A DNA stretch of 34,011 nucleotides from Firmicutes bacterium ZCTH02-B6 (GTDB lineage: Bacteria; Bacillota; Limnochordia; Limnochordales; ZCTH02-B6): positions 1-34,011 of the forward strand of contig LZRQ01000027.1 in assembly GCA_002159155.1 (NCBI GenBank), in the 5' to 3' direction. Below the pieces are notes generated by a model. It worked only from the letters and a program-made list of their open reading frames with translations. It did no database searches and was not told the origin of the DNA. The stretch's first letter is position 1. Each line of letters starts with the position of its first letter. This document shows, in pieces, positions 2,833-19,470 of this stretch. The position numbers and the translations under genes were made by a program.

Positions 2833-3579
2833 TCACGCGGCATTCGCCAGCGGGTGCTTCATCCACACGTGCGGGTCTGCGTAGACGCCGACGTCGGCCT
2901 CCCGGTCGACAGCCACAGGCTGCAAAGCGCCGGGCACGACGTACTGGCCGCTGCCCGGCATCGGCACCCCGGTCCACTCCTCCCACTGGGCAACAGGCGC
3001 CTCTACAGTCAGCGTGTTCCGGGCGACCTTGAGAAAGCTAGCGCCCATGCGCCAATGAACCCGCAGCCACGGGTCAAAGGGCGCACCATCCGTGCGGGTC
3101 CAGCGGACGTATTCCTCCAAGGGGATAAGGGGATAGCGGGCTTTCCAGGTAGGCCGGACGGGGATGATGAGGTCCGCGCAACCCAGTTGCCGGCCGCTCC
3201 GGCGCATCTCCCGGAGAATCATCCTGCTAAGTCCCCTGCCCTGGTACTCTTGCGCCACGATGGCGGCCAACGCGCAGACGGCGTTGGGCTTGCGCCCCTC
3301 CTCCTCGGTTTGCAAGGCCCGTACGAGGATTTCATCAAGGGTTTCCGGAAGATCGGTCAACGTGCCGTCCCAGACAAGGGGCACCATATACCCCACCGCT
3401 GCCACCCGGTTGGACCCGTCACAGATAAGAATCTGGTGGTGTGCGAACGTGTCGAACACGTGCTTCCAATGGGGCGTGTCCCGGTACCGCAGAAAATCAG
3501 GCCACGCGCCTTTGTCCAGCTCTAAAACTTGGTCTAATAGGTCAGGTCTTTCACTGAGACTGTGGGTAGCGAAAGCCAT
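2833..3579 (-). CDS. GNAT-family N-acetyltransferase
   Basis: A 248-residue acetyl-CoA-dependent acyltransferase. The acetyl-CoA pyrophosphate-binding motif A of the GNAT fold is seen at 110-118 (QEYQGRGLS, the Q/R-x-x-G-x-G/A pattern), following the beta strand VCALAAIVA. The start was set at ATG 3579 because AGGAGG lies 7 bases upstream; longer in-frame versions back to 3666 have no such site. The C-terminal ~80 residues, including the WKARYPLIPLEEYVRW stretch, are not a standard GNAT element, so the protein is longer than the usual 150-180 residues. It follows the tandem TetR gene on the same strand with an 83-base gap. It may be the last gene of that operon or be transcribed alone. The acceptor substrate is unknown. 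Confidence 0.75.
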   Translation of the reverse strand: MAFATHSLSERPDLLDQVLELDKGAWPDFLRYRDTPHWKHVFDTFAHHQILICDGSNRVAAVGYMVPLVWDGTLTDLPETLDEILVRALQTEEEGRKPNAVCALAAIVAQEYQGRGLSRMILREMRRSGRQLGCADLIIPVRPTWKARYPLIPLEEYVRWTRTDGAPFDPWLRVHWRMGASFLKVARNTLTVEAPVAQWEEWTGVPMPGSGQYVVPGALQPVAVDREADVGVYADPHVWMKHPLANAA

Positions 3580-3662
3580 GCCCAGTCCTCCTGTGCCGTG
3601 TTTGCCGGCGTTCGACAAAGACGCCGCAAAGGATTGGCGACAGCCGCGGGGCCGCCTCATGC

Positions 3663-5018
3663 TCACCGGGGTGCGGCAAGACCATCCCGCAGAAGCTCCA
3701 GGTACACCGCGGTCTGCTCGGTGATGCTGGGCAGCAGGTTGAGCCCTTTCTGCGGGTGAGAGCTCAATTCCACCAGCAAGCGGTCAGCCAACGTGTCGGT
3801 AACCATCATGACCAGCTGCACCGCCTGGGCGGGCTCGACATCAGGCCGGAACGACGTGGTGTCGACACCGTCCATGATCAGTTCCCAGCCGCGCTGCGTC
3901 GCTTCGGCGACGTATTGCTGCAGCGCCTCTCGCGCACCCTCAGGCGGCTGGGCCAAGGCGGCAAGCACCAATCCGTATAAAGTCGGTTGCTCTTGAAAAA
4001 TAAGCGTCTTCCGGCGGGTCCAATTCAATAACCGCCGGATGAGGTCCGGTTCGGGACCGTCCTCGCGTTCGAAAAAGACCTTTGAGATGCGGGCGGCGGC
4101 GTCGGCCACAGAGGCCAGGTAGAGCTCGGCCTTAGACCCAAAGTGGTGAAAGATCAAGCCCTTGGCCACCCCGGCACGCTCCGCGACCGCTTCGGCAGAC
4201 GTGCCGTTATAGCCGCGCTCGGCAAACAACTCCTGGGCGGCACGGAGAATGCGCTCCCGCCGCTCATCCGCAGCTTGGACGGCTGGTGCGAGCCGCTCCA
4301 GCGCCGCGAAAAACGGTTTTGGATCGAGGGAAACCGGCCGAGCCCCAGGATGAGTTCCGGGACGGTACAGACCGTGGCGCAGCAAGTCGGCAAGCGCCCG
4401 GGCCCGTAGGCGCGCGTCCTCTGGGTTTGCGACCGACGCAGCAGCGTGGAGACCATCAGTAGCCAAGACCTCCGCTAGCCCGTCCAACGCCTGGTTTTCA
4501 AACCCTTCCGCCACCATCGCCAGCAATTCAATGGCGGCTCGGGGCTCGACACCAGACCGGAAGGCGCGGGTGTCGACGCCTTCCCGGAATCGGCTCCGCA
4601 GCCGGCTATAATGCTCGTCGATGCGGCGGGCAGGTGGACTCAACACAGAGTGCAAACGGCCCCGGAAGCGGGCGACGAACCACGCCTCCACCGGATGGGC
4701 GGCCAGCCGTGCGCACCTACGGGTGAGAAACTCCTCCAGCCGCGCGAACGGATCCGCCGGAAGAGGCTCATCCTCGGTGGGAAACAACCGTTCACATGCC
4801 CACTCGAGAGCAGCGTTGAAGAGGTCCTGCTTTGAGCCGAAGTGCCGGAAGAGGAGTCCTTTGGCCACTTGTGCGCTTTTGGCCATGCGGTTGGTGGACG
4901 CGGCATCATAGCCCCAGCGGGCAAACTCCGCGACCGCGGCGGACAAAATTGCCCCCCGCCGCCGGCCGCGGCGGATGCCATAAACCCGATCCTCGGTATG
5001 CGGGATTTCCACTGTCAC
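3663..5018 (-). CDS. Tandem (double) TetR/AcrR-family regulator
   Basis: A 451-residue protein made of two complete TetR units in one chain. The first DNA-binding domain spans about 20-66 (RRGAILSAAVAEFARWGYDAAS, then VAKGLLFRHFGSKQDLF). The second spans about 253-299 (RERILRAAQELFAERGYNGTS, then VAKGLIFHHFGSKAELY). Each is followed by an all-helical ligand/dimerisation-type region of about 150-180 residues. A normal TetR protein is about 200 residues and dimerises; here one chain holds two HTHs and could act as a pseudo-dimer or bind two sites. The start is GTG 5018, with GGAGG about 8 bases upstream and 18 bases after the porin-like gene. It is the fifth gene of the ABC export operon, whose promoter carries two TGACC-N4-GGTCA sites, so autoregulation is likely. 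The ligand is unknown. Confidence 0.88.
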   Translation of the reverse strand: MTVEIPHTEDRVYGIRRGRRRGAILSAAVAEFARWGYDAASTNRMAKSAQVAKGLLFRHFGSKQDLFNAALEWACERLFPTEDEPLPADPFARLEEFLTRRCARLAAHPVEAWFVARFRGRLHSVLSPPARRIDEHYSRLRSRFREGVDTRAFRSGVEPRAAIELLAMVAEGFENQALDGLAEVLATDGLHAAASVANPEDARLRARALADLLRHGLYRPGTHPGARPVSLDPKPFFAALERLAPAVQAADERRERILRAAQELFAERGYNGTSAEAVAERAGVAKGLIFHHFGSKAELYLASVADAAARISKVFFEREDGPEPDLIRRLLNWTRRKTLIFQEQPTLYGLVLAALAQPPEGAREALQQYVAEATQRGWELIMDGVDTTSFRPDVEPAQAVQLVMMVTDTLADRLLVELSSHPQKGLNLLPSITEQTAVYLELLRDGLAAPR

Positions 5019-5036
5019 GTGGTCGGCCTCCAGCGA

Positions 5037-6137
5037 TCAGAAAAACCAACGAAGGCCGCCTGCAAGTCCGAGCCCGGCCGGCTGGGGCGGCCGCACCTGG
5101 CGGCGGAGCGACAGTTCCACCTCCGCCTGCCCGGGCAGCAGTCCGTAGGAGAGGGCAACACCCACCTCGTATGCCCGCTCGTTCCCTGCAAGCCCCCCAC
5201 CTCCGGCAGGCGCTCCCTTGTCAAGGAAGACGAGGGCGTCTGCGATCACCGCCCACCCGGAAGGAAACGCATAAGCCAGCTGTGCCGCGGCCACAGAAGC
5301 CTCGGTGGTCTCATCTCCAGCGCCGCCCGCCGCCGTAACGCTCGCCCGGCCGACCTCCGCAGTCCATAAAAAGTCGCCCACGTAGCCGGTGGCTCCCACG
5401 CTGCCGCGCAGGCCCGGCGCGCCTTTGAGGCTCCACAATTCCCCGTAGACGACCGTGGATCCTATCAGCCCGCTGGCACCGACACCTGCTGCGAGGCCGT
5501 CCTCCCGCCAAAGTACGTACCCCGTCGCCTCCCAGCCCACCAGTTGCTGCCGCCAGCCTAGAAGCCGCGTCCACTCCTCCCCCGCTCGCACGACCCCCAA
5601 CTGCAGCCGCCCGGTAGGCAAATACACATCGGTGCGCGCGCCGTCGACCCCCGGCCGGCGCCCGGCTTGGTCATGCGGCGTCAACGTGAACGGCATCGTC
5701 AAGCGGGCGGTTTCCAGCGGCAGCTGAAATCGGCCCACATACACATCCACGGCGGGAAACCGGAGGCCGGCGTAGGCTTCCGTCACAAGGGCAACGGAAC
5801 CCGCGACAACGCCGGTGCCGCTCAGGTCCACCGGAAACCACGGCTCCACCGTCAACGCAACCCACCACGGCGCAGCGACCGCCGGATTCAGCTGCAACGC
5901 CAATCTTCCTGCGAAAACGCCCACGGTCTCGGACACTGCACCGTGAGCTTGATGAGCGACCGTCACTGATGCCTCTCCTGCCACCGCCGCCTCGACGCCA
6001 TGGTCAGGCGCGGCCAGTGCGACGGCCCCGGGTCCGGCCAACAGATCGCCCCACAGGGCGAGTCCCGTCACGAGAATCAGCCGCAGCACCAAACGCCCAA
6101 GCCCCCAGCGCCGGCGCCAACTTAAGCGGCGGCTCAT
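5037..6137 (-). CDS. Exported porin-like beta-rich protein
   Basis: A 366-residue protein with an Arg-rich N-terminus, one hydrophobic segment and a signal-peptide-like region ending near residue 43 (GAVALAA). The mature part is Gly/Ala/Val rich with alternating hydrophobic and polar strands and no further helices that look membrane-spanning. The segment around VYVGRFQLPLE resembles the short turn-strand units of small-ligand porins. The chain ends LRWFF, and a C-terminal Phe after a beta strand is the classic outer-membrane barrel signature. ATG 6137 overlaps the stop of the ATPase gene (ATGA), so translation is coupled. It is encoded in an ABC export operon with a LolA-like domain. No named family is claimed. 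If the organism is monoderm, a secreted or surface beta protein is the alternative. Confidence 0.55.
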   Translation of the reverse strand: MSRRLSWRRRWGLGRLVLRLILVTGLALWGDLLAGPGAVALAAPDHGVEAAVAGEASVTVAHQAHGAVSETVGVFAGRLALQLNPAVAAPWWVALTVEPWFPVDLSGTGVVAGSVALVTEAYAGLRFPAVDVYVGRFQLPLETARLTMPFTLTPHDQAGRRPGVDGARTDVYLPTGRLQLGVVRAGEEWTRLLGWRQQLVGWEATGYVLWREDGLAAGVGASGLIGSTVVYGELWSLKGAPGLRGSVGATGYVGDFLWTAEVGRASVTAAGGAGDETTEASVAAAQLAYAFPSGWAVIADALVFLDKGAPAGGGGLAGNERAYEVGVALSYGLLPGQAEVELSLRRQVRPPQPAGLGLAGGLRWFF

Positions 6138-6829
6138 GCCGCCCCCACCCGCTCGTCAGCCACCACGCGGCCGTCCTCAAGGCGAATGATGCGCTTCACG
6201 TGCTCCAACAGGCGCGGGTCGTGGGTGGAAAACAAGAACGTGATGCCCCGTTCCTCGTTGAGCTTTTTCATGAGCTCGATGAGGGACAGCCCGGCTTTCG
6301 AATCGAGGTTGGCCGTGGGCTCGTCGGCCAACACCACCCGCGGTTGTGCGGCGAGCGCCCGGGCCACCGCGACCCGTTGTTGCTGGCCGCCGGACAGCTG
6401 GTTGGGCCGGCGGTGGGCCAGTTCCGCGATTCCCAATGCCTCCAGGGCCGCCATCGCCTTCGCGTTCCGTTCCTCTCTAGGTACTCCCTGCAACTCCAGG
6501 ACAAAGGCCGCGTTTTCCAGCGCCGTCAGGACGGGGATAAGGTTGTAGGCTTGAAACACGAACCCAATCTCCCGTAGGCGCAGATGGGCCCGGGACACGT
6601 CGTCCAATTGGTCGGTGCGCCGCTCGCCGAGCCACGTCTCGCCCGCTGTCGGCTTGTCCAAACAGCCCAACAGGTGCAGCAGCGTGCTCTTGCCGGAGCC
6701 GCTCGGGCCCGCGATGGCGGTGAACTCCCCCGGCACGATCTCCAGGTCAACCCCTTGCAGCGCTGGCGTCCTCACACCTTCATTCTCGTACACTTTGGTC
6801 AGCCTGACGGCGCGCAAGATCGGTTTCAT
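6134..6829 (-). CDS. LolD/MacB-type ABC transporter ATP-binding protein
   Basis: A 231-residue cytoplasmic ATPase that would drive the two FtsX-type permeases encoded just upstream. Walker A GPSGSGKST is at 41-49, the Q-loop Gln at 93, the signature LSGGQQQR at 145-152, Walker B VVLADE at 165-170 and the switch His at 203 (STHD). All catalytic elements are intact. Length and motif spacing match the LolD/MacB/FtsE group, which powers mechanotransmission transport of lipoproteins, peptides or drugs rather than import. The start was chosen at ATG 6829 because GGGAGGG lies about 10 bases upstream; the upstream in-frame extension to 6907 lies inside the permease gene. It begins 17 bases after the permease stop. 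Confidence 0.9.
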   Translation of the reverse strand: MKPILRAVRLTKVYENEGVRTPALQGVDLEIVPGEFTAIAGPSGSGKSTLLHLLGCLDKPTAGETWLGERRTDQLDDVSRAHLRLREIGFVFQAYNLIPVLTALENAAFVLELQGVPREERNAKAMAALEALGIAELAHRRPNQLSGGQQQRVAVARALAAQPRVVLADEPTANLDSKAGLSLIELMKKLNEERGITFLFSTHDPRLLEHVKRIIRLEDGRVVADERVGAA

Positions 6830-6846
6830 GACCGCAAATCCCTCCC

Positions 6847-8073
6847 CTAGGCCGCGTGCCGCATGGCTTCCACGGGCTGCAGGCGTCCTGCAACCCATGC
6901 TGGCCAAAGGGCGGCCGCCAGCGCGGTGAAAATCGCGAACGTCACCGTGACGGCCACCTGTACGGGAGTTACCGATGGGTACAGCACCAGCGGGAGCCCA
7001 TACTCGGCCATGACCTCATCGAACCCCGGCATACGGAACCCGTCCGCCCAGCTCGCGATGAGCAGCCCGCCGGCCAGCAGCCCAACGGCCGTGCCGGCCA
7101 GTACCAGAGTGAGACTCTCCGCGACCACCATGCGCATCACCCGCCACCGGTCGGCGCCGACGGCGAGGATGACGCCGAACTCCCGGATGCGCTCCACCAG
7201 GCTCAGGTAAATGGTGTTGACCACCATAAGGCCGGCCAGGACAAAGATGAAGAAGGAAAAGACGGTCATGACGGGGTCCATCATGTCGAGGAGCGCGGCC
7301 GTGTCGGGCGAGGCTTCGCGCCACGTTTCGACCAGCACCTCCTCCCCCAGCAGGGCTGTCGCCCTGGCCTTGGTTTCCTCCACCAAGGCATCCGTCGGTG
7401 CACCGCGCTCGGCTGCGAGGTGTACCTGGAGGCGGGTGACGGCACCCGGTGCAGCCAGTTCCTGGGCTCCTTCCAGGGACAAGTACGCCGCCTGGATCTC
7501 GTGGGATGTCTGGGGGAAGTCCAACAGCCCGACGAGGGTGTAGGCAGCTGCACCCCAGCCGTCGGTTCCCGGAGCAAACACGTAGACCGGATCTCCCAAC
7601 TCGACTTGCAAAGCCTTGGCAAGCGCCTGGCCGAGGGCGATCTCGTCCCAACTGCCGGGGGCGGGGAGCCGGCCGGCCGCGACGTATTCCCTGGCAAAAC
7701 GCTCGCCGAGGGCCTCGTCCTGCTCCATCCCGACGACCATGGCCCCACGGGCTCGCGTTTCGCCGCTGATGAGGGCAGGTACTTCCAAGAGCCGCCGCAG
7801 CCGGACACCCCGCAGTTCCTTGAGGAGCGCCATTTCCACCTCAGCCGCGTTGCGGATGAGGCGTGCGTCAAAGTCCTGAGCTTCCTTCGCTTGGGCATGA
7901 GTGATCTGCAGATGGCCTGACTCGGAAGTCAACACTTCGACCATGCCGTTCATGGTGGCGGTGACAAACCCGAAGAAAACGAGCGTAAACACAACGGCCA
8001 CTGCCACCGCACCGCCAGCCACGAAGCTCCGGGTTTTATGTCGCCAGACATTGCGCCAGGCCAATCCCCACAC
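6847..8073 (-). CDS. FtsX/LolC-type ABC transporter permease
   Basis: A 408-residue permease with the topology of the MacB/LolCE family. One membrane helix lies at about 17-40, a large extracytoplasmic domain at about 41-265, and three further helices at about 270-292, 316-342 and 368-394. The conserved cytoplasmic element ERIREFGVILAVGA at 294-307 contacts the ATPase in this family, and the C-terminus AGRLQPVEAMRH is typical. GTG 8073 directly follows the TGA of the preceding permease gene, so the two are translationally coupled. With the other permease it would form a heterodimer. It is predicted to move lipoproteins, lipids or a toxic compound outward from the membrane; the substrate is unknown. 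Confidence 0.88.
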   Translation of the reverse strand: MWGLAWRNVWRHKTRSFVAGGAVAVAVVFTLVFFGFVTATMNGMVEVLTSESGHLQITHAQAKEAQDFDARLIRNAAEVEMALLKELRGVRLRRLLEVPALISGETRARGAMVVGMEQDEALGERFAREYVAAGRLPAPGSWDEIALGQALAKALQVELGDPVYVFAPGTDGWGAAAYTLVGLLDFPQTSHEIQAAYLSLEGAQELAAPGAVTRLQVHLAAERGAPTDALVEETKARATALLGEEVLVETWREASPDTAALLDMMDPVMTVFSFFIFVLAGLMVVNTIYLSLVERIREFGVILAVGADRWRVMRMVVAESLTLVLAGTAVGLLAGGLLIASWADGFRMPGFDEVMAEYGLPLVLYPSVTPVQVAVTVTFAIFTALAAALWPAWVAGRLQPVEAMRHAA

Positions 8074-10122
8074 TCACCGGCACCCTCTTTCCAACGCTTG
8101 CAGCGTGAAGCAGGCGTCGGGAACCGACGTGTCCAACTCCACGCCCGACAGGCGAACAAGGGTCCTGTACCCTTGCTTGGTCAGGTCCTCCACCACCATC
8201 AGCTGGGGCAGACGACTACCCCCGACCTCGAGATACTCCGAGAGCGTCAAGCGCTTGACGACTCGGCCCCGCTGGTCGTAGTAGTCGAGCCACTGCGGCG
8301 TCAAGCTGGTCTCCTCGACGCCGATGACGACACGGCCATAGGGCGTCGGGGCGCCCTGGCGCGGGGTGAGCTCGAGCACGATGGTGGCGTCCGTCCCACG
8401 GCCGCCGGCCGCTTCAGGGGCGGCGAACATCGCGGTGTAGTCCTTCTCGATGTCCCGGCCGACAATGTCGTTGTAGCTCACGTCCGAACTCAGGAAGGCG
8501 TTGCTGCGACCGCTGGGAGGAAGCCGGAGAGAGCGGCCTAAGCGGGCGTTGTACAGCCAAAGATCAGCACCGTCCATCAGAAACGCCTGCCCGGCTTCCC
8601 GGGGCGGCGCGACGATCCTGATGAGACCGCGGTCTTGACCGTCCGCGACGATCTCCATCACGTACTCCGTGGTCCGGCCCGGCCGCTCAATCGTGAACGT
8701 GTAAGTGCCCCGCAACGGCCCGCCGCGCCAGTTGTCCACCACCGCCTCTAACACGCCGGTGGCGTCCACCCCGGGGTGCACCGCGCCCTGGGTCGCGGCT
8801 GCAACGCCAGCCACTGTTAGAGCCACCACGATGCCCACAACCGCAGCGAACGCCCGCATGGCGATCGCGGTCCGCAGGCGTGCCGCCCGCCGCCCCGGGA
8901 CCAGGGCGCTCAGGACGACCGCCGCGGCGATCACCATGCCGGAGTACACCACATAGACGGCCCGCACCGCGCCGTACACCTCCTCGCTCAAGCCCGCCGT
9001 CGGCATGCTGGCGCTGACGGCGCCAAACAGCGGGCCGAGGATGTTGTAGCTGGCGAGAAGCCAAGCGAACGCGTAGCCTAGGCCCAAACCCGCAAGCCAG
9101 CCTAGAACACACGTGAACAACGCCTCCAGCGTCACCAGCGCCCCCAGACGGCCGGGCGGCACGCCCAGAGCGGAGATGACGCCCAACTCCCGAGTCCGTT
9201 CCATCACGCTCACAAAGACGGTACTGGCCACGGCCACCGCGGCGAAGGCGTAGACGATGAGCGCCAACACGTGGGCAAACACCCGGTTGGCTTCCACGTC
9301 GGCCTTGATCGGCCCGACGAGGTCCCAGACACCCCGGGCCGTAACGCCTGCGGGCAACACCGCCTGGGTTCGTCGTGCCACCTCGTCCTCCGCCCCCCGG
9401 GCAACGTCCAGGTCGAGCGTGGTGGCGGTGGACACCCCTGTAAGGCGGCGGGCGTCGTCGAGGTGAATAATAACGGCCGTTTGATCGACCAACGCCACCC
9501 CGCCGCGCACTATCCCCACAACCCGCAGCCCCATGGCCTGTGGTCCAGCCAGTGACCCGGCGCTCACCACCACCTGCTCGCCGATCCGGGCGTCGATGCG
9601 GCGGGCCACCTCTTGCCCCAAAACGATTTCTCCCGGCCCGGCGAGCCAGCGCCCTTCCGCCACCTTGCCGGGGATGCGGCTCAAGCGCGGCTCCCCCGCG
9701 GGGTCGACCCCCACGACTTCAACCCCCTGGGTGACGTAGACCGATTGGAGGAGCGCGGGAAACTGAAGCCTCGGCGAGGCCGCCCTGATGCCCGGGACAT
9801 CGGCCAGTGCCTGCTGGAACGCCAAATCGCTGAGGTGGTTCTCCGGGTCGGGGTCTTCGTACCAAGCATCCGCGGCGATACGCACGGGGGCAATGATGTA
9901 GCGGGCGTACGACTCGACGACCGACTCCGCGTACCCGTCCACGAAGCTCCAGTACACGATGGTAAGAAAGGTCACGTACGTTACGACCACCAGCAGCAGG
10001 ATGGTCCGCTGTCTGTGGCGCCACAAGTTGCGCCAAGCGAGACGCACGAGAGCCATGGCAGGAGAGGAACGCATCAGGGATATGGCAGGAGCGGGAGCCG
10101 GTTGGCGGGTTCCTTGCGTCAC
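8074..10122 (-). CDS. FtsX-type permease fused to a LolA-like outer-membrane-lipoprotein-sorting domain
   Basis: A 682-residue single open frame. Residues 25-418 are a MacB/LolCE-type permease: a helix at about 39-60, an extracytoplasmic domain, helices at about 283-305, 325-355 and 388-410, the motif ERTRELGVISALG at 308-320, and the family-type end GRRAARLR. At Met422 (ATG 8859) a signal-peptide-like hydrophobic stretch begins. From about 447 to the end is a beta-rich LolA-like domain (TYTFTIERPGRTTEYVMEIVADG, then LWLYNARLGRSLRLPPS). Such domains carry or sense lipid moieties and are usually separate secreted proteins. The start is GTG 10122, with AAGGCGGTG 8 bases upstream. It is the first gene of the operon, directly behind the operator/promoter region. 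The fusion would tether the LolA-like part outside through a fifth helix. Confidence 0.82.
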   Translation of the reverse strand: MTQGTRQPAPAPAISLMRSSPAMALVRLAWRNLWRHRQRTILLLVVVTYVTFLTIVYWSFVDGYAESVVESYARYIIAPVRIAADAWYEDPDPENHLSDLAFQQALADVPGIRAASPRLQFPALLQSVYVTQGVEVVGVDPAGEPRLSRIPGKVAEGRWLAGPGEIVLGQEVARRIDARIGEQVVVSAGSLAGPQAMGLRVVGIVRGGVALVDQTAVIIHLDDARRLTGVSTATTLDLDVARGAEDEVARRTQAVLPAGVTARGVWDLVGPIKADVEANRVFAHVLALIVYAFAAVAVASTVFVSVMERTRELGVISALGVPPGRLGALVTLEALFTCVLGWLAGLGLGYAFAWLLASYNILGPLFGAVSASMPTAGLSEEVYGAVRAVYVVYSGMVIAAAVVLSALVPGRRAARLRTAIAMRAFAAVVGIVVALTVAGVAAATQGAVHPGVDATGVLEAVVDNWRGGPLRGTYTFTIERPGRTTEYVMEIVADGQDRGLIRIVAPPREAGQAFLMDGADLWLYNARLGRSLRLPPSGRSNAFLSSDVSYNDIVGRDIEKDYTAMFAAPEAAGGRGTDATIVLELTPRQGAPTPYGRVVIGVEETSLTPQWLDYYDQRGRVVKRLTLSEYLEVGGSRLPQLMVVEDLTKQGYRTLVRLSGVELDTSVPDACFTLQALERGCR

Positions 10123-10171
10123 GGTCTGACCACCGCCTTTCGCGGAGCAGACAAGGGGGCTGCCCGAAAAG

Positions 10172-10185
10172 TGACCGCGCGGTCA
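10172..10185. promoter_or_regulatory. Operator 2, perfect palindrome TGACCGCGCGGTCA
   Basis: A perfect 14-bp palindrome of the form TGACC-N4-GGTCA, preceded by AAAAG. It lies at the predicted transcription start of the export operon, just downstream of the -10 element. The shape is typical of TetR-family operators. The encoded tandem TetR regulator is the natural candidate to bind it. Confidence 0.75.
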
Positions 10186-10193
10186 GCACCTCA

Positions 10194-10223
10194 AGTCTAC
10201 CGCGAAAGTGACCACTTGGTCAA
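10194..10223 (-). promoter_or_regulatory. Sigma-A-like promoter of the ABC export operon
   Basis: Reading the minus strand, TTGACC (10223-10218) and TAGACT (10199-10194) are separated by 18 bases, giving 5/6 and 4/6 matches to the sigma-A consensus. Initiation would fall near 10187. The -35 is contained in one TGACC-N4-GGTCA operator and the start site touches the other, so a bound repressor would block polymerase at both ends. Confidence 0.6.
10209..10222. promoter_or_regulatory. Operator 1, TGACCACTTGGTCA
   Basis: A second copy of TGACC-N4-GGTCA with perfect 5-bp arms, preceded by the same AAAG as the first copy. It overlaps the -35 hexamer of the operon promoter. Centre-to-centre distance to the other operator is 37 bp, about three and a half helical turns. 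Confidence 0.75.
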
Positions 10224-10289
10224 CGCGTCGCGCCTTCCAGGGGATCGCGCGAGGGTGTCGAAGCGGTGCATCGGTTTGGAGCGCGCCGG

Positions 10290-10868
10290 CTAAAGTTCCC
10301 GGATCACTCGGCACGGGTTTCCCGCGGCCAGCACCCGAGGCGGGACCTCCTTGGTGACCACCGCGCCGGCACCGATGACGGCCCCGTCGCCGACCCGCAC
10401 CCCAGGGCAAATGATCGCGCCGCCGCCGACCCACACGTCGTTGCCGATGTACACCGGCAATGCGGACTCCAGTCCCCGCCGCCGCTCGTCGGGATCGAGG
10501 GGATGGGTGGCCGTGTAGATGTGCACCCCGGGGCCAAACAAGACGTTGCTGCCGATGTGCACCTCGGCCGGATCAAGGATCACGCAGTCGAAGTTGAAAA
10601 ACACCCGGTCCCCCAGGTAAATGTTCTTGCCGTAGTCGCAGTAAAACGGCGGCTCGATGACCACTTCCGCGCCGACCGCGCCGAACAGCTCTTCATACAG
10701 TGCCCTCCGGGAGGAGGGATTGCCGTAATCCGGATCGGGTGCAAAGTTGAGTCGCCGCAGAAGTTCCCGCGCCCGGCGCCGGCCCGCCAACAGCTCCGGG
10801 TCCGAGGCGTCGTAAAGCTCGCCTTCCAGCATCTTCATTCGTTCCGACTTCAACCCCATCGCCTCCAC
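10290..10868 (-). CDS. Maltose/galactoside-type O-acetyltransferase (hexapeptide repeat)
   Basis: A 192-residue trimeric left-handed beta-helix enzyme that would transfer acetyl from acetyl-CoA to a sugar hydroxyl. The N-terminal helical region (KMLEGELYDASDPELLAGR) is the maltose/galactoside acetyltransferase cap domain. Hexapeptide repeats run from about 68 to 180, with the catalytic His122 in YTATHPLD and the familiar AGNPCRVIREL ending. The start is GTG 10868, with GGAG 6 bases upstream; ATG 10859 has GGAGG too close. It precedes the export operon on the same strand, but the 167-base gap carries that operon's own promoter, so it is probably a separate unit. The in vivo substrate may be a sugar detoxification or envelope target. 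Confidence 0.87.
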   Translation of the reverse strand: MEAMGLKSERMKMLEGELYDASDPELLAGRRRARELLRRLNFAPDPDYGNPSSRRALYEELFGAVGAEVVIEPPFYCDYGKNIYLGDRVFFNFDCVILDPAEVHIGSNVLFGPGVHIYTATHPLDPDERRRGLESALPVYIGNDVWVGGGAIICPGVRVGDGAVIGAGAVVTKEVPPRVLAAGNPCRVIREL

Positions 10869-10980
10869 CGACGTCTCCTATGCGGCGGTCACCGCGGGTC
10901 AATGGTAGTCTCCCCACCGGTACGGCGAACGACGCCGTCCGGAAGTGCAAAAGACAGCATGCTGTGACGACGACGTTGGC

Positions 10981-11889
10981 CTACCCGTGCAGGAACGAAA
11001 GCCCGCGCCGGAGGCTCGAGCCAAAGCCGTTTGGGTAGTCGTGGCCGAGTCCGGGGTGCTCCTCCACGTCGCAGGCCAGACCAGCTTGCTTCATGGCCAA
11101 CGCGAGCTCTTTGGCGGGCCCATAGCACCAGTCCTCGGTTCCGACCACGACGTATCCCCGGACGCCGCGGGGCGCCGTTTGGACCAGCGGGCCCATCTGC
11201 TCCGTGCGAAAACTCGGAGCGACAGCCAGGAACCCGCAGGCCGGTATCGATCCGCTCAACGTCGCGCGAATGGCCAAGCCTCCCCCCATCGAGAAGCCCG
11301 CGAGCACGATCGGGGAACCCTCCCCGATCTCCTCAAGGTGGCGGCGCACTTCTTCTATGGCTTTGGCCGCGTCTTGCCAGTGGTAGCGTCGAGGGGCAAA
11401 GACTTGCGATGACTGCAGCATGGCAACGCGCCATCCTAGCTGTACCGCTTGGCGCCAGTAATCGCCTTCGGTCAGGATGCTGCCGCCGGCTCCGTGCAGG
11501 GCGACCAAAAGACCGCACGGCTGCCCGGCCGGCTCCCACACTTGCCGCTCCGGTTTCGCCTCCGCTTGCGCCTGCTGGTGTCGCTCGTTAAATAGGCGCT
11601 GCAGGTCAGCCAGTTCCGCGGAATCGCGGATGATGTCCAAGTCCGGATCCCGGAGCATGCGCTCATGGTACCAGTGGCCGCGTTCGGCCGCCGACTGGAG
11701 CGCCCTGATGGCCTCGGAGCGGTTCCCCAGGCGCCCATAGAGACAAGCCCGCCAAAAGAGAAGGTCGCTCTCGAACTGCGTCAGCGCCTCGGCATGCTCG
11801 TCAATCAGCGCCAGCGCTTCCGCGTACGCTTGGCGCTCAGAGAGGGCGAACACCCGGTCGCGTAGTCGCTTAAACTGGGCGTCTTGCAT
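10981..11889 (-). CDS. Alpha/beta hydrolase with N-terminal helical (TPR-like) region
   Basis: A 302-residue protein with two parts. Residues 1-105 are helical and repeat-like (AYAEALALIDEHAEAL, then LFWRACLYGRLGNRSEAIRAL), resembling TPR units. From about 122 a serine hydrolase fold begins: an LHGAGGS oxyanion-hole region at 131-137, nucleophile Ser200 in GFSMGG, probable acid Asp253 in GTEDW and His283 in GLGHD. The pattern fits the phospholipase/carboxylesterase or dienelactone hydrolase group. ATG 11889 is preferred, with a GGGGGA run about 9 bases upstream; a GTG at 11949 is possible but has no clear site. It appears monocistronic, diverging from the TPR remnant. The substrate is unknown. 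Confidence 0.72.
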   Translation of the reverse strand: MQDAQFKRLRDRVFALSERQAYAEALALIDEHAEALTQFESDLLFWRACLYGRLGNRSEAIRALQSAAERGHWYHERMLRDPDLDIIRDSAELADLQRLFNERHQQAQAEAKPERQVWEPAGQPCGLLVALHGAGGSILTEGDYWRQAVQLGWRVAMLQSSQVFAPRRYHWQDAAKAIEEVRRHLEEIGEGSPIVLAGFSMGGGLAIRATLSGSIPACGFLAVAPSFRTEQMGPLVQTAPRGVRGYVVVGTEDWCYGPAKELALAMKQAGLACDVEEHPGLGHDYPNGFGSSLRRGLSFLHG

Positions 11890-18486: not shown

Positions 18487-18594
18487 GCCCTTCACTCTCC
18501 CATCATCCAGAAGGGGAGTGTTTCGCGACGGGGGAATAACCACCACAACATCCCACGGGGTTCAACAGACCGCTGAAAAGAGTTGGTCACGCCG

Positions 18595-19470
18595 ATGGAG
18601 CGGATTACGGTGAACGCCGATGCACGTCAAGTACCGCCGCTTTTCTCCGAAACGATTCGAGGGGATGACGCGCCGGGGACCGGCGCGGCCACCGGTCCCC
18701 TCAAGCCCATCCTCAAATGGGCAGGCGGCAAGCGCTGGCTCGTACCCGAATTGAGCCGCATCTGGAAAGAGCACGCCCATCGCCGGCTGGTGGAACCAAT
18801 GTGCGGCGGGCTGGCCGTCACATTGGGGCTGATGCCGCAGCGCGCGTTGCTTAACGACGTGAATTCTCATCTTGTGAACTTCTACCGGTGGGTGAAGGCG
18901 GGACTGAGGTTTGGCTTGCCGATGCGGAACGAGTCCACGATGTATTACGAACACCGGCGTCGTTTCAACGAGCTGATCCGCCAAGGTAAAGCGGACACCA
19001 GTGAAGCTGCCCAGCTGTTCTACTATCTAAACCGGACGGGATACAACGGTCTCTGCCGGTTCAACCGCCGCGGGGAGTTCAATGTGCCGTTTGGGAGGTA
19101 TAAGCGCATCAACTACGAGCCCGACCTGGCCCCCTACCAGCAAGCGTTCGCCAATTGGGAATTCCGGGTCGGGGACTTTGCCTCGGTGCCGCTGGAACCC
19201 GGCGATTTTGTGTACGCTGACCCCCCGTATGACGTCGAGTTCACGCAATACGCCAAAGATGGTTTCAGCTGGGACGATCAGGTTCGGCTCGTCGAATGGC
19301 TCGCTGCCCATCGGGGACCGGTCGTCCTGTCCAATCAGGCGACCAGCCGCATCGTGTCGCTGTACGAACGCTTCGGATTTCAACTGCGGTTTCTCGAGGC
19401 GCCGCGGATGATTAGCTGCAACGGAGATCGTACGCGAGCCCTGGAAGTTCTCGCGCTCAAAGGGGTCTGA
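18595..19470 (+). CDS. dam: Dam-type N6-adenine DNA methyltransferase (probable GATC)
   Basis: A 291-residue class D12 (alpha) methyltransferase that moves a methyl group from S-adenosylmethionine to adenine. Motif X, ILKWAGGKRWL, is at 39-49; the SAM-binding motif I is VEPMCGGLAVTL at 66-77; the catalytic DPPY is at 209-212. The target-recognition block NGLCRFNRRGEFNVPFGRYK (151-170) is almost that of enterobacterial Dam, so GATC specificity is likely. ATG 18595 is used; TTG 18583 is an alternative, and neither has a strong ribosome binding site. No restriction endonuclase gene is adjacent, so it is an orphan enzyme with a probable role in repair, replication timing or gene regulation. Confidence 0.9.
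   Translation: MERITVNADARQVPPLFSETIRGDDAPGTGAATGPLKPILKWAGGKRWLVPELSRIWKEHAHRRLVEPMCGGLAVTLGLMPQRALLNDVNSHLVNFYRWVKAGLRFGLPMRNESTMYYEHRRRFNELIRQGKADTSEAAQLFYYLNRTGYNGLCRFNRRGEFNVPFGRYKRINYEPDLAPYQQAFANWEFRVGDFASVPLEPGDFVYADPPYDVEFTQYAKDGFSWDDQVRLVEWLAAHRGPVVLSNQATSRIVSLYERFGFQLRFLEAPRMISCNGDRTRALEVLALKGV

Follow-up and report, generated by a model that had tools for sequence, protein, structure and literature searches.

A single protein chain with two TetR DNA-binding domains is encoded at the end of an exporter operon whose promoter carries two palindromes with the same arms. This raises the question of how a two-headed regulator would read two such sites: with one chain spread over both, holding them together, or with a separate chain on each. 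A previous sequence-only reading of the locus took two sites and two HTHs in one protein as a pointer to a one-chain clamp, or to looped repression, that might dispense with classical dimerisation. Here, the locus is considered within its window, by which we mean the whole stretch of 34,011 nucleotides that was analysed, and alongside its relatives in other genomes.

Paired palindromes and promoter geometry

The two palindromes, TGACCGCGCGGTCA at 10172-10185 and TGACCACTTGGTCA at 10209-10222, are as first described: each has perfect TGACC-N4-GGTCA arms, the same in both, each is preceded on the plus strand by AAAG, and the distance between their starts is 37 bp. The operon lies on the minus strand and, read in its own direction, the region has the order TTGACC(AAGTGGTCACTTTCGCGG)TAGACT(TGAGGTGC)TGACCGCGCGGTCA. 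Its elements are as follows.

10209..10222, minus strand: predicted operator O1, TGACCAAGTGGTCA on the operon strand; perfect arms; overlaps the -35 hexamer; conserved in L036, L037, L038 and G001
10218..10223, minus strand: -35 hexamer TTGACC from a promoter scan; within O1; TTGACC is found there in all four double-TetR operons
10194..10199, minus strand: -10 hexamer TAGACT from a promoter scan; 18 nt after the -35 hexamer; between O1 and O2
10172..10185, minus strand: predicted operator O2, TGACCGCGCGGTCA; perfect palindrome; at the expected transcription start; conserved in G003

This is the sole sigma-70-like promoter match within positions 3000-11000, and it falls on the operon strand at O1/O2. 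Shuffled versions of the same region gave a mean of 0.7 matches, compared with the one seen, so that the promoter call rests on conservation in relatives. In the other three double-TetR promoters the hexamers read TTGACC-17-TATACT, TTGACC-17-TATGCT and TTGACC-18-TACACT, followed in each case by 8 nt and then O2, just as O2 starts here 8 nt past the -10 hexamer, at the expected transcription start. The scan and the shared layout together confirm the proposal that one palindrome covers the -35 hexamer while the other sits at the predicted start.

O1 and O2 are 36 bp apart in operons with a -35/-10 spacer of 17 nt and 37 bp apart in those with a spacer of 18 nt. Since the distance tracks the spacer and O2 always lies 8 nt past the -10 hexamer, promoter geometry accounts for the fixed distance. 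A 37-bp spacing tuned for bridging is thus an unnecessary assumption, all the more so as the spacing varies in other loci (see below). Similarly, the placement of the sites on opposite helical faces is correct for this locus, where 37 bp amounts to about 3.5 turns, but the phase varies across the family.

The rarity of the motif was assessed at three levels. Perfect TGACC-N4-GGTCA has four matches in the 2.77 Mb genome, against three for a reversed control pattern. The O1/O2 pair itself makes up half of the four, and the genome holds no second pair. Lone sites are therefore at chance level, and the pairing alone is significant. A wider regulon founded on the remaining perfect matches, C52:5016 (within a coding gene) and C211:5207, was set aside, their number being at the level of the control. 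Across the phylum, 16 of 398 genomes contain the paired motif and 0 of 398 the paired control (gap 15-45 bases), and across the class the figures are five of 72 genomes and none (gap 8-38).

The exporter operon

Downstream of the promoter are five minus-strand genes of the ABC/FtsX exporter type, with the double TetR last.

8074..10122, minus strand: gene 1, FtsX/MacB-type permease fused to a LolA-like domain, 682 residues from the first possible start; Pfam FtsX, MacB_PCD and LolA_like
6847..8073, minus strand: gene 2, FtsX-family permease; Pfam FtsX, 8.8e-17
6134..6829, minus strand: gene 3, ABC transporter ATPase; Pfam ABC_tran, 1.4e-33
5037..6137, minus strand: gene 4, no family match; a similar reading frame occupies the same place in L035-L038, L104 and L105
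3663..5018, minus strand: gene 5, double-headed TetR, 451 residues; two Pfam TetR_N domains

The gene 4 protein was searched against both Pfam and NCBIfam without a match. Gene 5 follows gene 4 on the same strand after 18 nt, and the regulator thus lies inside the operon. The gene order is common to L036, L037 and L038, but the permease and the LolA-like protein are two genes there. The single frame at 8074-10122 likewise corresponds to two genes in G001, G003, G008, G015 and G020, and could be either a true fusion or a draft-assembly error. By analogy with TimR (see below) and with exporter operons generally, the ligand of the regulator is probably something that the ABC/FtsX system exports or moves.

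The double-headed TetR protein

Two Pfam TetR_N matches (113 bits) bear out the claim that the fifth gene encodes one chain with two TetR DNA-binding domains. The 451 residues divide into an N module (about 19-218), a linker (about 219-247) and a C module (about 248-450), the modules being of about 200 residues each, with HTHs at about 20-66 and 257-302. The protein is accordingly a TetR family member with two complete modules, as in double regulators of the Mce3R type. The closest solved structure to the C module is the Thermotoga maritima protein TM1030 (PDB 2id6, 4i6z), which shares the VAKGLIFHYF recognition helix but is single-headed. The C module aligns end to end with this complete TetR protein, which indicates that each half carries its own ligand-binding part.

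Of 13 positions in the recognition helices, the two heads share 10-13 (all 13 in G008), and identity between the N and C halves is 33-39%. Single-chain TetR is also known as an engineered protein, in which two joined modules make one chain equivalent to a dimer on one palindrome. That protein is man-made from identical copies of Tn10 TetR, whereas the fusion here is natural and old, and its halves have only the identity just given.

Five orthologues of the double TetR, those of G002, G015, G020 and G008 among them, show 48-67% identity in alignment and keep the open frame. The protein was absent from all other genomes sampled, and no place in the plasmid collection covered 80% of it. Trees place the five N halves in a clade of their own and do likewise for the five C halves. 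Both clades lie within a single-headed group that includes TimR; the heads group with pair-associated single-headed TetRs with clade support of 99/98 and 99/99. The separate N and C clades imply that the fusion predates the regulators of the five species and, within the sample, had a single origin. The trees, which do not place the N and C clades relative to each other, are compatible with an internal duplication as well as with a fusion of two relatives.

Two minor observations concern the proteins themselves. The double TetR of G015 (L038:470-1930) has an extra low-complexity insert of repeated SEV (EVSEVSEVSE) in its N module. There is also a second, unrelated double-headed TetR (L123:3689-4929 on G000:C60, L124:3388-4806 and L125:5976-7367), present in this genome as well as in G001 and G002, with HTHs of the form ...VANGTFYRYF and ...VAQGTFYVHF; no TGACC pair was found in the stretches read around L123, L124 and L125.

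Homologous operons with and without the regulator

Conservation of the motif upstream of homologous operons had been put forward as a check on the twin sites, and paired conservation is what was found. Each of the three homologous operons with both a double TetR and an assembled promoter keeps the O1/O2 pair, at a distance of 36-37 bp. In two further genomes, G001 from the same genus and G003 from the same family, the operon ends with gene 4, and its gene 1 homologue is 80% identical. Neither shows a trace of the double TetR beside the operon or a high-scoring match in the genome (the G001 assembly being 89% complete). G001 retains a perfect O1 alongside an O2 decayed to TAACCGCTTTGTTA, and G003 a perfect O2 alongside an O1 decayed to TGTCCGGCTGGCCG. 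In both the sites are exactly 37 bp apart. The decayed sites match at seven of 10 arm bases and, as the chance of at least seven of 10 at one named position is 0.0035, they are remnants. Upstream of the more distant homologous operon of G009, which likewise lacks a double TetR, there is neither a perfect nor a near-perfect site.

That one site has decayed in both G001 and G003, which lack the regulator, indicates that the paired state goes with the double TetR. It is well supported by this comparison across relatives that O1 and O2 are operators of this operon and, given that the pair is kept with the double TetR and one site decayed without it, the protein is very probably the cognate autorepressor. 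A different assignment would have O1 and O2 belong to another, single-headed TetR encoded elsewhere, with the double TetR acting on a different target. The same motif is indeed used by single-headed TetRs in other organisms, and one site is still perfect in G001 and G003 without the double TetR. Nevertheless, such an arrangement seems very improbable: the gene for the double TetR stands last in all the operons found to contain it, one site has decayed in G001 and G003, which lack it, the other TetRs sampled from same-family genomes (L020, L021 and L033) fall outside the pair-linked clade, and there is no further pair in the genome.

The sites that are still perfect where there is no double TetR are L105:5718 and L104:1793, and another regulator may use them. 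G002 was considered as an additional comparison and rejected, because the promoter is missing from its double-TetR contig and an FtsX promoter is found instead on C219 (L106), a possible contaminant. The L106 leader is almost identical to that of G003, which suggests that the G002 assembly may hold DNA of a second organism.

The same pair with single-headed TetR proteins

Outside the double-TetR operons, 13 paired loci (L059, L109-L116 and L119-L122) adjoin a complete single-headed TetR gene. At L117 and L118 the pairs are 33 bp apart, with no complete TetR gene within about 5 kb and a TetR frame at the edge of the stretch. Where examined, the neighbours are mostly ABC exporters or alpha/beta hydrolases, the exporters comprising ABC, FtsX and HlyD genes at L109, ABC and ABC-2 permease genes at L122 and an ABC gene at L114, and the TetR gene is often last. 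Here too the -35 hexamer may be found inside one site of the pair. Spacings among the single-headed loci are 32, 33, 38, 39, 40, 44, 49 and 50 bp, with no common helical phase, and this range argues against a rigid bridge. A relaxed pair scan of unselected TetR loci of the clade, with 1.5 kb flanks for most, found none, so that use of the pair cannot be claimed for every clade member.

The best-characterised comparison is with the timABR operon of Listeria monocytogenes, whose promoter is bound by TimR until tartrolon B is added (PMC11970672). The two systems share a regulator encoded last in an ABC exporter operon, an HTH of the type ASTNKICEKAGVSKGLIFHYFGSK, and paired TGACY-N4-GGTCA sites with the -35 hexamer in the first site and the -10 hexamer between them. 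In Listeria the sites are TGACTACCTGGTCA and TGACTAAGTGGTCA, around TTGACT-17-TATACT, and they differ from O1 and O2 in being 33 bp apart and in having T for C in one arm. TimR itself is an ordinary single-headed protein of 206 residues with 24-29% identity to either half of the double TetR; operons of its type are regulated by a single-headed homodimer, whereas gene 5 is double-headed. RutR was also tried as a comparator with the same operator, and rejected, since the single rut intergenic stretch found in E. coli has two mismatches.

That single-headed TetRs, TimR included, have the same pair rules out its being peculiar to the double head. Twin operators are rather a general feature of a TetR group, independent of the double head. 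It follows that a clamp or loop cannot be read from the coincidence of two sites and two HTHs, given that the same pair, at spacings of 32-50 bp, serves single-headed proteins.

Probable binding of one chain per palindrome

Single-headed TetRs are expected to bind as homodimers, one per palindrome, and the fused chain has both heads that such a homodimer supplies; this favours one chain per palindrome. Mce3R of Mycobacterium tuberculosis (PDB 9b7y), a double TetR of solved structure in which both heads of one chain lie on one site, 32 Å apart (PMC11667970), is a precedent that favours the same arrangement. It was the only protein found in the literature on tandem or single-chain TetRs. Mce3R and the gene 5 protein are alike in being single chains of two complete TetR modules, in autoregulation (predicted here), in having two sites per regulatory region and in their link to a transport operon. 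They differ in that the Mce3R sites are non-palindromic, 25 bp long and 53 bp apart, compared with palindromic sites 36-37 bp from start to start here, and in that the heads of Mce3R are non-identical, while the recognition helices here are nearly identical. The gene 5 protein matches 9b7y weakly and in the HTH regions alone, with no relationship along the full chain, and is therefore not an Mce3R orthologue; nor do its sites, with their perfect palindromic arms, resemble the asymmetric, non-palindromic operator that an orthologue would be expected to use.

We thus favour, with a probability of roughly 0.6, an autoregulated exporter operon in which the double TetR would be the repressor, one chain would occupy each palindrome and two chains would occlude the promoter. 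From the sequences compared we infer binding, repression and induction of the following kind. One chain would fold as an intramolecular pseudo-dimer and place its two near-identical recognition helices on the two TGACC arms of a single palindrome. A second chain on the other site would mean that O1 and O2 were both filled, covering the -35 hexamer and the transcription start, and RNA polymerase would be kept off the promoter for as long as this lasted. A ligand, probably a compound handled by the exporter, would then release both chains.

The bases flanking the arms may carry a trace of such a reader. When O1 and O2 flanks are compared in the double-TetR operons, right halves are alike at 11 of 12 positions and left halves at three of 12 (Fisher p 0.003, from a post hoc count over four related loci that are not independent, and with left halves that are also constrained by the promoter). 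Single-headed operons show no side bias (21/36 and 25/36). The polarity of the flanks runs in the same direction at O1 and O2, which fits a polar, two-headed reader. On the other hand, the O1 left half is always ...TTGACCA and the O2 left half mostly ...CTGACCG, and so consistent a difference could mean different readers at each site.

A rival reading is a tetravalent clamp, in which two chains would pair N to N and C to C and the two TetR dimers so formed would hold O1 and O2 together, closing the promoter. Two palindromes and two kinds of head are compatible with this, as are the consistent differences between the left halves of O1 and O2 at the inner and at the outer base, and a symmetric assembly was one of two models weighed for Mce3R (PMC11667970). 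However, the intrachain arrangement is the one demonstrated for Mce3R, and the pair also serves single-headed TetRs, at spacings of 32-50 bp. In addition, the distance in double-TetR operons follows promoter geometry, and the sites are about 3.5 turns apart on opposite sides of the helix. We consider the clamp distinctly unlikely, and the evolutionary scenario that goes with it, in which TetR fusion brought an ordinary twin-operator promoter under a single tetravalent two-chain clamp that closes it, a shade less likely again.

A compromise would keep one chain per palindrome but have the chains on O1 and O2 touch, with the short DNA between them bent or looped. The Mce3R homodimer carries two DNA duplexes in its complex, looping between sites has been suggested by its authors (PMC11667970), and that system resembles the present one in having two sites per promoter. 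Against contact, sites whose centres are only 36-37 bp apart and which lie out of phase by half a turn would make for a costly loop, spacing and phase vary within the family, and steric occlusion explains the layout by itself. We regard contact as unlikely; neither bridging nor a loop is needed to account for the layout of O1 and O2. Of the original proposal, then, the single-chain reading is plausible and has its precedent in Mce3R (PMC11667970), but the clamp or loop attached to it finds no support.

Implications

With Mce3R, there is already an example of a double TetR whose two heads read a single site. The present comparison adds a natural before and after, in which the same twin operators serve ordinary TetR homodimers and a fused, two-headed TetR. 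With the DNA held constant, it can be asked what fusion changes in polarity of reading, in cooperativity and in response to ligand. Double-TetR regulators, described mainly from actinobacteria (PMC11667970), are also extended to a compost lineage of Bacillota. Finally, paired TGACC-N4-GGTCA sites can serve as a signature by which to recognise autoregulated TetR operons, of which many are exporter operons.

One further feature of the window may be recorded: the open frame at 18583-19470 resembles a Dam-type adenine-specific DNA methyltransferase, as judged by eye from its translation.
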